Part shown: piece by piece, positions 20,947-43,417 of the stretch
Numbering within the stretch: the first letter of the stretch is position 1
How the letters are laid out: the number at the start of each line of letters is the position of its first letter
NCBI RefSeq assembly: GCF_022569295.1
Contig: NZ_JAKFIA010000001.1
Span: 1,999,001-2,063,000 of the forward strand
Direction of reading: 5' to 3'
Length of the DNA: 64,000 nt
Origin: Pedomonas mirosovicensis
Lineage (GTDB): Bacteria; Pseudomonadota; Alphaproteobacteria; Sphingomonadales; Sphingomonadaceae
Notes under the pieces: model-generated
The model's database searches: none
Told to the model about the DNA's origin: nothing
Seen by the model: only the letters and a program-made list of their open reading frames with translations
Made by a program: the position numbers and the translations under genes

Positions 20947-21332
20947 AGAGCCCTTTGTTGATCGCACTTTCTTAACCGCAGGGCATCCGCCCTGCTCGAA
21001 AGATGCTCGGGGTTGCCCGATGCGACCATCGCACCGGCTTTCGGGCCGTGGGACTTGGCGCACGCGCCAGTCAGAGCTCCCGCGCTGGGGAGCGGCCGGG
21101 CTAACCAAACCGGCCTGCCTTTTCCGACGCTTACGTTTTAGTCCATCCAGACGTCCGCCTCAAGCATCGCCGCGCCACTGGTTGAAAGCCTGATGTTCCG
21201 GCCCCATGTTCACAAAGCGGGCCGGGCCCCTCTGACAGTCGAGCAAGTCGGCTGTGATGTCGGACCGCTTTAAAACGAGGCCCGGCGCAGGTTCGCACTC
21301 CGTCCGGGCTAAGCTTGAGGAGAGAAAGAACC
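20947..21332. other. intergenic region upstream of the VOC and zinc-ribbon genes
   Basis: 386 bases between divergent genes. It contains a perfect 7-bp hairpin with a 4-base loop (GCAGGGC/GCCCTGC, 20978-20995) without a T tract, close to the VOC start. No gene, tRNA or known riboswitch pattern was recognised on either strand, and no promoter pair stands out, though both divergent promoters must lie here. Confidence 0.5.
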
Positions 21333-38980: not shown

Positions 38981-39568
38981 GTGAAATTCCTTCGCGCCCT
39001 TTGGCGGGATGAGAGCGGCGCTTACCTCGTCGAGTTCGCTTTTACCTTTCCCATCATCGCCATGCTGCTGCTGGGCGGGTTTGATATCGGCTACCAGACG
39101 CTCAAGCGAGCCAGCCTCGTTGGCGCGGTGCGCGACGCGGCGCGCGATGCCATCACCAAATCGGCGGGCTGCTCGACCGATCGGTCACAGATGATCGAGG
39201 AGGAAATCCGCCGGGCCATGGCGCCATACAACATCAACGGCTCCACGCTCACGGTGGAAGCCCGCTCCTACGCCGGAGAAGGCGGCTTCGGCGGGGTCGG
39301 CAAGCCCGAGCCGCTGACCAACGACCTGAACAACAACGGCCGCTACGATCCAGGCGACTCCTACACCGATATCAACGGCGATGGCCAATGGTCGGAGGAC
39401 CGCGGCAAGGTGGGCGATCTGGGCGGGCCGGGCGATGTGGTCGTCTATACCGCCGAGTTCCAGGCCCCTACCCTGTTTCTCAACCTGCCCCTGCTGGGCG
39501 GGCGGGACTGGATTACCCTGGAAGCCAGCACCGTTGCGCGCAACGAGCCCTATAAATGCGAAGAGTGA
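38981..39568 (+). CDS. TadE-like pseudopilin with two calcium-type loops
   Basis: A 195-residue TadE family protein: short basic start, DESGAYLVEFAFTFPIIAMLLLGGFDIGYQ (prepilin-like Glu18 and membrane helix, residues 12-38). A segment at residues 115-140 holds two EF-hand-like loops, DLNNNGRYD and DINGDGQWSED, unusual for this family and suggestive of calcium binding outside the cell. GTG start with GGGAGGCGAGG just upstream; follows the TadG-like gene by 12 bases and overlaps or abuts the next gene. Confidence 0.87.
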   Translation: MKFLRALWRDESGAYLVEFAFTFPIIAMLLLGGFDIGYQTLKRASLVGAVRDAARDAITKSAGCSTDRSQMIEEEIRRAMAPYNINGSTLTVEARSYAGEGGFGGVGKPEPLTNDLNNNGRYDPGDSYTDINGDGQWSEDRGKVGDLGGPGDVVVYTAEFQAPTLFLNLPLLGGRDWITLEASTVARNEPYKCEE

Positions 39569-39588
39569 GGAACCAAGGCACAGGCCCC

Positions 39589-40236
39589 ATGATCGTCAGC
39601 CTCCGAAAATTCCTGCGCCGCCTGCGGCGCGACACGAGTGGCCTTGGCGTCATTGAACTGGCGTTCGTCGCGCCCATTCTCATGTTGCTGATGACGGGCG
39701 GACTGGAACTCGCCAACTACATCATGGCGAAGATGAAGGTGACGCGCGTCGCCACCATGATGGCGGACTTGACGGCGCAATCCCCTGTCGGCGTGCTGGA
39801 AGGCCAGATCTCCGACCTGTTCCTCGCCGCCAACATGGTGACGGACCCGCTGAACATTCTGGAGAACGGCCGCGTCTACATAACCGCCGTGCGCGGCGGC
39901 GGCTCCTATGTGGGCAATACCATTCTCTGGCAGCGCTGCGACGGCAAGCGGACGGACTTTGTCAGCGAGATCGGCTCCTCAAACAACAAGAACGTCGTCC
40001 TGCCGCGCAACATCACACTGGAGACGGATGCCATCACGGTCGTCGCCCAGGCCAGCATGGCCTACAAGCCCTTGCTGTTCGACGCGCTGTTTCCAGAAAA
40101 TACAGAAATCACCCAGGTGGCGGTTTACATGCCGCGCGCGCTCAGCTTCGGCGTCATTACGGCGGACGAGACAACGCCCAAATCCAACTGCGGCACCAAC
40201 GTCACGCAGTACAACGACAAGGGTTATCCGGTCTGA
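39589..40236 (+). CDS. TadE-like pseudopilin
   Basis: A 215-residue protein with basic start (RKFLRRLRRD) then TSGLGVIELAFVAPILMLLMTGGLELANY, the TadE motif with Glu and membrane helix at about residues 17-44. The remainder is outside the membrane and ends with two Cys (one near the middle, one in NCGTN) that could pair. The ATG at 39589 is preferred (AAGG about 10 bases upstream); an ATG at 39556 overlaps the previous gene. Third gene of the Tad-like operon, followed by a terminator. Confidence 0.87.
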   Translation: MIVSLRKFLRRLRRDTSGLGVIELAFVAPILMLLMTGGLELANYIMAKMKVTRVATMMADLTAQSPVGVLEGQISDLFLAANMVTDPLNILENGRVYITAVRGGGSYVGNTILWQRCDGKRTDFVSEIGSSNNKNVVLPRNITLETDAITVVAQASMAYKPLLFDALFPENTEITQVAVYMPRALSFGVITADETTPKSNCGTNVTQYNDKGYPV

Positions 40237-40257
40237 TCGAAGCTGCTGCCCAACAGG

Positions 40258-40292
40258 GCAGGCCCGGTGCCGGCGCGCCGGGCCTGCTCTTT
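40258..40292 (+). terminator. Rho-independent terminator of the Tad-like operon
   Basis: GCAGGCCCGG (40258-40267) pairs perfectly with CCGGGCCTGC (40278-40287), followed by TCTTTCC. It lies between convergent genes and may also limit readthrough from the exporter gene. Confidence 0.7.
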
Positions 40293-40308
40293 CCAGTGGA
40301 GCGGCTGA

Positions 40309-41523
40309 TTAGCCTCCGCCCTGCTGCGACAGCCGTTGCTCCTTTCTGTTAAAGCGGGATAGCGCCAGCACCAAAGCGGGTAGCCCCAGGCAATAGGCCG
40401 CGATCGGCCAGTGGGTGCCGGCTGGCAGCACCGCCAAAAGCAGCGTTCCCAGACCGCCCAGAACCAGGCCGCCCAGGCAGAAATAAACAGCCGTCACCGT
40501 GCCTGCGATGTGGTCGAACCCGCGCAATGCGCCGTTGGGCGCGACAGAGACCGCCATGGCGATGCCGAAGCCCACCAGCCACATGGGCGCGATGAAGCCC
40601 GGCAGGAAAAACGGCATCCACACTTCGCTGGCCGCCAGCAAAACGCCACCTGCCATCAGGCAAGCCATCGCCGCGCAGAGCATACGCGAGGCGCCCCAGC
40701 GCGGAGCCAGACGGGCCATGGCCCGTGCCGCCACCATCATCGCGATGGCAACGGTTGCAAACAGCAGGCTGAACGCCATTGGCGACAGCCCGTGCCGCTC
40801 CATCAGCAGCCAGGGGGACGTGGAGAAATAAACGAAGAAAGCCCCCATGGCCGCGCTGTAGCCCAGCGTGTAGTGCCAGAAATTGAGATGCCGCAGCGGC
40901 AGCAGCAAATGCCGCCACTGCACGCTTGCTCCATCCTGTTCGCGCGTTTCGGGCCATAGCCGCCAGGCCGTTGCGATCGCGCACAGCATGGCAAGACCCA
41001 GCGCGATGAAGATGGCCCGCCAGCCAAGCCATGCGTTCAGAAGCGTGCCGAGCAGCGGGCCTACAACCGGCACCATCGCCAGCATCGAGCCGAGCAGCCC
41101 GTAAATGACATTGCTTTCCTCGCGCCCGGCATAAACATCACGCACCGTTGCGAAGGTGGCGACCAGGCAGGCGGATGCGCCGCAGGCCTGCAGCGTTCGC
41201 AGCGCAAGAAACGTCAGCGGCTCACCGGTCAGCGCCAGCCCCAACGAGGCGGCGATATAGGCAAGCCCCCCGCCGAGCAAGACCGGCCTGCGGCCAAACC
41301 GGTCCGACAACGGCCCAAAGATCAGCTGCCCCGCCCCGATCAGCACGAGGTAAACCGTCAGGGTCAACTGAATGAGTGTGCTGTCCGCCTTCAGCGCCGT
41401 CGTCATGGAGCGCACCACCGGCAGGTACATGTCCATGCCCAGCGAGGCGAGAAGATCAAAGGGTGACAACAGGAAAAGCGTGGCGGTCAGCGAGTACCGC
41501 CAGGAAAAATTCTGTGAGCGCAC
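40309..41523 (-). CDS. cmlA: CmlA/FloR-type MFS phenicol exporter
   Basis: A 404-residue, 12-helix major facilitator of the Bcr/CflA drug:proton antiporter branch. Its N-terminus (MRSQNFSWRYSL, then SPFDLLASLGMDMYLPVV), PLSDRFGRRPVLLGGGLAY, ILQACGASACLV-type and GREESNVIYGLLGSMLAMVP segments and the C-terminal VSVAPNGALRGFDHIAGTVTAVYF region follow CmlA1 from memory nearly word for word, so chloramphenicol export is the likely role (florfenicol possible). Starts at GTG as cmlA does, with AAGGAG 8 bases upstream. A 9-codon leader and attenuator lie upstream. Base composition resembles its neighbours, so it is not an obvious cassette. Confidence 0.9.
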   Translation of the reverse strand: MRSQNFSWRYSLTATLFLLSPFDLLASLGMDMYLPVVRSMTTALKADSTLIQLTLTVYLVLIGAGQLIFGPLSDRFGRRPVLLGGGLAYIAASLGLALTGEPLTFLALRTLQACGASACLVATFATVRDVYAGREESNVIYGLLGSMLAMVPVVGPLLGTLLNAWLGWRAIFIALGLAMLCAIATAWRLWPETREQDGASVQWRHLLLPLRHLNFWHYTLGYSAAMGAFFVYFSTSPWLLMERHGLSPMAFSLLFATVAIAMMVAARAMARLAPRWGASRMLCAAMACLMAGGVLLAASEVWMPFFLPGFIAPMWLVGFGIAMAVSVAPNGALRGFDHIAGTVTAVYFCLGGLVLGGLGTLLLAVLPAGTHWPIAAYCLGLPALVLALSRFNRKEQRLSQQGGG

Positions 41524-41529
41524 GAAGCC

Positions 41530-41627
41530 AACTCCTTAGAATCAGGAATTCGGCGGCGCTCTCCTTTCAGAGAAAAGCCTCTGCGAGAAGCGCCGCAACA
41601 ACCATGAGGAATGCGGGTTGCTGCGGC
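41530..41627 (-). promoter_or_regulatory. translational attenuator between the leader and the exporter gene
   Basis: Three stems can form in the minus-strand RNA. Stem 1 (plus-strand arms 41592-41603 and 41616-41627, 12 bp with one wobble) begins directly after the leader stop codon. Stem 2 (arms 41555-41563 and 41585-41594) overlaps stem 1 and so competes with it. Stem 3 (arms 41530-41536 and 41544-41550) pairs the exporter's AGGAG. This is the layout expected for drug-induced ribosome stalling in the leader freeing the Shine-Dalgarno. Confidence 0.7.
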
Positions 41628-41657
41628 TTACCTGTCTGCTGTCTTCGCGGTGCTCAT
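41628..41657 (-). CDS. cmlA-type attenuation leader peptide MSTAKTADR
   Basis: ATG to TAA on the minus strand, nine codons reading MSTAKTADR, 104 bases before the exporter start. The published leader of the cmlA1 cassette is MSTSKNADK; length, first three residues, Lys5 and Ala-Asp at positions 7-8 coincide. A ribosome stalled here by chloramphenicol would cover the start of stem 1. The upstream Shine-Dalgarno (AGG, 8 bases away) is weak. Too short to be found by ordinary gene calling. Confidence 0.75.
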   Translation of the reverse strand: MSTAKTADR

Positions 41658-41667
41658 GCCCGGTGCC

Positions 41668-41702
41668 TAAAAAAACAGAGGCCGGAGCATAGCCCCGGCC
41701 TC
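41668..41702 (-). terminator. Rho-independent terminator of ettA
   Basis: GAGGCCGG/CCGGCCTC (41678-41685 and 41695-41702); on the minus strand followed by TTTTTTT. It ends only 11 bases before the leader peptide ATG, so the exporter promoter must overlap the terminator or the end of ettA, or the exporter depends on readthrough. Confidence 0.85.
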
Positions 41703-41740
41703 GCGCCAAATCCAGTGGATCAGCGTCTCGTCCAACCCGT

Positions 41741-43417
<1,677 letters not shown>

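Follow-up and report, generated by a model that had tools for sequence, protein, structure and literature searches.

Within the 64,000-nucleotide stretch of Pedomonas mirosovicensis DNA analyzed here (the window), an exporter gene of the CmlA/FloR family is preceded by a nine-codon leader and three conserved stems, and we consider it highly probable that a phenicol exporter under translational attenuation, homologous to cmlA, is the explanation of the locus as a whole. Family membership, the leader, the conserved stems and a predicted switch were each computed in this analysis. The exporter, its leader and the genes on either side are as follows.

40309 to 41523, minus strand: CmlA/FloR-family MFS exporter, 404 aa, GTG start, GTGCGCTCA
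41628 to 41657, minus strand: leader ORF MSTAKTADR*, nine codons, predicted chloramphenicol stall context
41741 to 43417, minus strand: upstream neighbour ettA, with a homologue in 60/60 family genomes
39556 to 40236, plus strand: convergent downstream neighbour, TadE-like (PF07811)

The exporter, which contains a Pfam MFS_1 domain, scored 539.9 bits against the NCBIfam CmlA/FloR equivalog NF033134 (curated cut-off 450), bearing out the CmlA/FloR-like assignment made in the original prediction. Scores against the allele models for CmlA (NF000509, 600 bits, cut-off 875), CmlB1 (NF012203, 610 bits, cut-off 900) and FloR all stayed below cut-off, and by these model scores the protein is a member of the CmlA/FloR family and neither a CmlA nor a CmlB allele. 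Its identity by tblastn was 72% to Cml of P. aeruginosa pWTJH6, 67% to CmlA1 and 50% to FloR; the Cml of Acinetobacter plasmids is 70% identical. Chloramphenicol is the predicted load of the exporter, as judged from its equivalog family.

The leader (ATG AGC ACC GCG AAG ACA GCA GAC AGG TAA) was found where it had been described, at 41657-41628, with exactly 104 nt between its stop codon and the exporter GTG; the distance is 107 nt if the stop codon is included, and on that count it is 98-109 nt in 31 relatives. Chloramphenicol stalling is favoured by a penultimate Ala, then by Ser or Thr (PMC8987054), and for the KNAD core of the CmlA leader, arrest that depends on chloramphenicol has been published (PMC10192921). 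Screening for a penultimate Ala, Ser or Thr before Asp identified Ala7-Asp8-Arg9 in the window leader, and the predicted stall geometry has Ala7 in the penultimate position, Asp8 in the P site and Arg9 in the A site.

The region between leader and exporter holds three inverted repeats, which upheld the earlier description of competing stem-loops over the exporter's AGGAG, with stem C covering AAGGAG. Their arms, in order of transcription, are the following.

41616 to 41627, minus strand: stem A 5' arm (segment 1), GCCGCAGCAACC, directly 3' of the leader stop
41592 to 41603, minus strand: stem A 3' arm (segment 2), GGTTGTTGCGGC
41585 to 41596, minus strand: alternative stem B 5' arm, GCGGCGCTTCTC, one bulged base, overlapping the stem A 3' arm
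41553 to 41563, minus strand: alternative stem B 3' arm (segment 3), GAGAGCGCCGC
41545 to 41553, minus strand: sequestering stem C 5' arm, CC.AATTCC
41528 to 41537, minus strand: stem C 3' arm, holding the exporter Shine-Dalgarno (SD) AAGGAG (41537-41532)
41516 to 41521, minus strand: start-codon part of the sequestering stem, GCGCTC, with its partner GAGCGC at 41561-41556 (segment 3)

In an alignment of 24 sequences (the window and 23 relatives), 98.3% of cells were paired in stem A and 89.1% in stem C, the latter with two-sided changes in 4/8 pairs. Stems A and C together had 94.6% of cells paired, compared with 23.7-60.5% when slid, and six pairs with two-sided changes, compared with 1.2 in shuffles (0/500). 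Stem B had 93.6% of cells paired in the same 24 sequences, against 37.5-59.5% when slid, and its covariation was modest, 17/500 shuffles reaching its changed-pair count. By prediction, therefore, the region has the layout of an attenuator, with mutually exclusive stems of which one hides the SD and start. No Rfam family matched the leader region; elsewhere in the window, at 21214-21272 on the plus strand, there is a terC cis-regulatory RNA (RF03067, 63.3 bits).

The switch would work as follows. Without drug, the nine-codon leader would be translated and the ribosomes would depart, so that stem A (1:2) would fold first and leave segment 3 free for the sequestering stem (3:4), which would hide AAGGAG and the GTG, and little exporter would be made. 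With chloramphenicol, a ribosome would stall with Ala7 penultimate and Asp8 in the P site, and its footprint would cover the first half of the stem A 5' arm; segment 2, once released, would pair with segment 3 as stem B, block the lower half of the sequestering stem and open the start site. We modeled this by masking the RNA that a stalled ribosome would cover (the stall mask) and reading out partial-transcript folding and the energy needed to open the region from the SD to start+6. For a window transcript ending at segment 3, the mean probability of stem A was 0.94 unmasked and that of stem B was 0.99 with the stall mask, and the start-site opening cost fell from 19.4 to 11.5 kcal/mol with the stall mask (8.8 if stem B was held), whereas a control mask over only the first 16 nt, at the leader start, left it at 17.5. 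The stall mask lowered the opening cost in 21/21 sequences, FloR included (8.4 to 4.6). The structure predicted for the window RNA under the mask has GCGCTC (the last G of the start codon and the next codons) paired with GAGCGC, a pairing that would compete with stem B. When the intervening segment was shuffled, an equally large drop occurred in at most 2/60 shuffles for 11/13 sequences tested; the counts for the window and CmlA1 were 6/60 and 9/60. At equilibrium the SD was on average equally accessible (0.17) before and after application of the stall mask, so the switch either requires kinetic folding or does no more than weaken the stem. Together, the folding and shuffle results support the predicted switch well for the family and moderately for the window sequence alone. 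By homology, the attenuation mechanism is very probably correct. The exporter is well predicted to be inducible, and stalling and induction would presumably depend on the drug in the window host as well.

We collected 31 CmlA-type or FloR loci by exporter similarity (27 CmlA-type from one genome-wide scan and four plasmid loci), and the attenuator element was present in 31/31, each with a short ORF at the spacing given above followed by TAAGCCG and stem A. The similarity of the window leader and gene start to cmlA/cml loci is far above chance, with E as low as 1e-34 and 76-79% identity across 92% of the query. From the 24 sequences we also built an RNA model, which in 398 phylum genomes and 120 family genomes gave nine further foreign matches, each before a CmlA/FloR-type exporter gene. 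Carriers of the attenuator are alpha-, beta- and gammaproteobacteria as well as plasmids, and FloR-like genes in one family of the window's own class have the leaders MGTSKSADK, MGSSKSADK, MGTTKSADR and MGALPQADR. On sequence comparison, the switch is common to nearly the whole CmlA/FloR family and not peculiar to the window genome. Ala stands third from last in 26 of the 31 aligned leaders, Thr in three and Val in two; the second-last residue is Asp in 23, and the last is Lys or Arg in 28. Because these stall residues (Ala, Thr or Val in third-last position) are kept while the codons vary (GCA/GCC, GAC/GAT, AAG/AAA/AGA/AGG), the leader appears to be selected as a peptide. The viral contigs searched held no relative; four matches in a phage collection were all CmlA1 or FloR copies. 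A literature search, thin on subscription journals, found no paper on the leader across chromosomal homologues.

Two variants of the element were observed within this family. Leaders of Xenorhabdus and Xenorhabdus-like loci (L013, L018, L020-L022, L024, L027, L031, L032 and L084) have 9 or 11 codons and keep the stop and the stems, and altered stall residues occur among them (EKAIK, EKAEK, KRVDK, KRVVK, HRAER, RKTDR, HLTDR and HITDR). At L086:4256-4391, on the G526 chromosome, a natural hybrid has the CmlA1-cassette promoter and the leader MSTSKNADK fused within the stem A region to floRv, which implies that the leader module has been exchanged between exporter branches. On a speculative reading, which we think rather unlikely, the CmlA/FloR attenuator would be old, would predate and span both exporter branches and would have been kept in many environmental proteobacterial chromosomes, so that a natural ribosome-targeting inducer would have to exist; in Xenorhabdus the switch would have been kept and its sensing residues retuned (Ala-Asp to Ala-Ile, Ala-Glu, Val-Asp, Val-Val or Thr-Asp), perhaps to match an inhibitor that is local or of the cell's own making. 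It is quite unlikely, in our view, that the window leader itself senses another ribosome inhibitor (a peptidyl-transferase drug or natural product) and that the main load of the exporter is something other than chloramphenicol. Such a role would fit the penultimate-Ala stalling shared by linezolid (PMC8987054), the occurrence of homologues in environmental and insect-associated genera and the departure of Xenorhabdus leaders from the Ala-Asp motif; however, the window leader retains the AD core of the CmlA leader, a published chloramphenicol arrest (PMC10192921), and the window protein lies above the phenicol-exporter equivalog cut-off.

The original prediction had also regarded the gene as native and perhaps close to the chromosomal ancestor of the mobile cmlA genes, and here the results pointed elsewhere. 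The exporter is chromosomal and single-copy, and its composition is host-like, as had been noted (GC 64.5% versus 64.6% for the window; GC3 0.80). No attC site was present in 39901-41800, in agreement with the earlier observation, in a scan that detects two in a CmlA1 integron used as control, and the genome had no integron integrase above the cut-off; with attC absent, origin as an integron gene cassette was rejected. At the cut-offs used, however, the exporter gene was absent from 39/39 relatives (a set holding no same-genus genome) and from 384/384 other genomes of the class, and the only same-family matches of the RNA model, in G672 and G830, precede FloR-type genes. The position between a Tad-like operon and ettA was confirmed (the TadE/TadG-like genes lie downstream of the exporter and converge on it), yet it lost its value as evidence of nativeness, for in the relative G012 the ettA and TadE-like genes adjoin, separated by about 160 nt that hold no exporter. 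Absence from all close relatives, which the original prediction had named as counting against it, holds for gene and leader jointly, while the leader travels with the whole family. The absence from relatives and class genomes and the empty site in G012 are most simply read as a gain in the window lineage. In the tree, the window exporter groups with Thalassospira (95/90), next to the pWTJH6 Cml, and the CmlA1 cassettes fall elsewhere; forcing a clade of the window exporter with the CmlA1 cassette group, a group named after the tree was seen, lowered the log-likelihood by 58 and was rejected (p-AU 0.0006). The host-like composition, the lack of attC and integrase, and the tight placement of the locus between terminators would be explained if the locus were old, native and inherited vertically, near the origin of the mobile cmlA cassettes. 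Such a history is nevertheless very improbable in light of the missing gene, the empty site, the rejected clade and an identity to CmlA1 of only 66%. From the sequence comparisons, the exporter looks acquired rather than native, and presumably the lineage gained it either from a high-GC donor or with later adjustment to host composition. That CmlA-type loci can be chromosomal and inherited is shown by the flanking genes that species have in common in Achromobacter, Thalassospira and in parts of Xenorhabdus. At the two flanks of the exporter and leader there is a direct repeat (12/13 match; 40259-40271 and 41655-41667; 40/2000 shuffles score as high), which is suggestive of a target-site duplication and no stronger than a hint at an insertion boundary.

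Upstream, the leader abuts the end of ettA (the best plasmid-collection match of the ettA product, at 76%, is annotated EttA), and two elements lie between them.

41678 to 41702, minus strand: ettA intrinsic terminator hairpin with an 11-pair stem, then seven T, abutting the leader
41686 to 41691, minus strand: candidate -10 box TATGCT, 28 nt upstream of the leader ATG, within the loop and stem of that hairpin

The -10-like boxes TACGAT/TAGGAT occur 27-28 nt before the leader in CmlA1, pWTJH6, Acinetobacter and most Xenorhabdus loci. TATGCT may thus be a -10 box, in which case terminator and promoter may overlap, and if the box is real, one short stretch would both end ettA and start the attenuated transcript. 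A sigma-70 consensus scan upstream of the leader gave no promoter match, TATGCT included. Together with the start of the leader about 20 nt past the ettA terminator stem, a weak -35 region and a cmlA promoter sequence that is unrecognisable upstream of the window leader, this would suit a relic, in which an acquired cmlA-type gene lost its promoter on insertion and is now silent or read by leakage through the ettA terminator. We regard this as unlikely, as TATGCT lies at exactly the spacing of the family -10 boxes, the leader reads in frame with its stall codons and every stem preserved, and an exporter frame intact at 66-72% identity to its relatives indicates long selection. In Achromobacter (leaders L023 and L026), the attenuator is present with no -10-like box at the usual spacing, and the promoter there must be elsewhere.

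Stokes and Hall reported translational attenuation of cmlA in 1991 (reviewed in PMC8876359). Like the window locus, cmlA1 of the Tn1696 integron has a nine-codon leader (MSTSKNADK), alternative stem-loops, a hidden SD and start, and a GTG start; unlike it, cmlA1 moves as a cassette, has an attC site and brings its own promoter, whereas the window promoter apparently overlaps the ettA terminator. The nearest proteins, the Cml of pWTJH6 (72%) and of the Acinetobacter plasmid (70%), have the similar leaders MSTTKEADK and MSATKKADK but are plasmid-borne, with a TAGGAT/TACGAT -10-like box in the usual place. In Thalassospira (the sister group of the window exporter), Achromobacter and Xenorhabdus, the chromosomal CmlA-type genes share the layout of leader and stems with the window; their flanking genes recur between species of the genus, and the Xenorhabdus leaders have changed stall residues. 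For floR, whose exporter is 50% identical, an attenuator has been proposed (PMC5890775, PMC8256890), in both cases as a single stem-loop that does not overlap the RBS, and its role was hence left unclear (PMC8256890). The floR locus has the nine-codon leader MGNSKSADK and stem A, and we found the B-type pairing kept as well (L004:2347-2483; GCGGCG with CGTCGC, 6/6 core pairs), with TGACGA/TCGTCA able to hide the start region; the retained stem B is a candidate answer to the question of how floR could be controlled by a stem-loop lying clear of the RBS. The window thus adds a chromosomal, high-GC example to a textbook resistance switch, and the leader and three-stem switch are inherited with CmlA/FloR exporters in three classes of proteobacteria, an argument that environmental chromosomes had inducible phenicol efflux independently of clinical cassettes.
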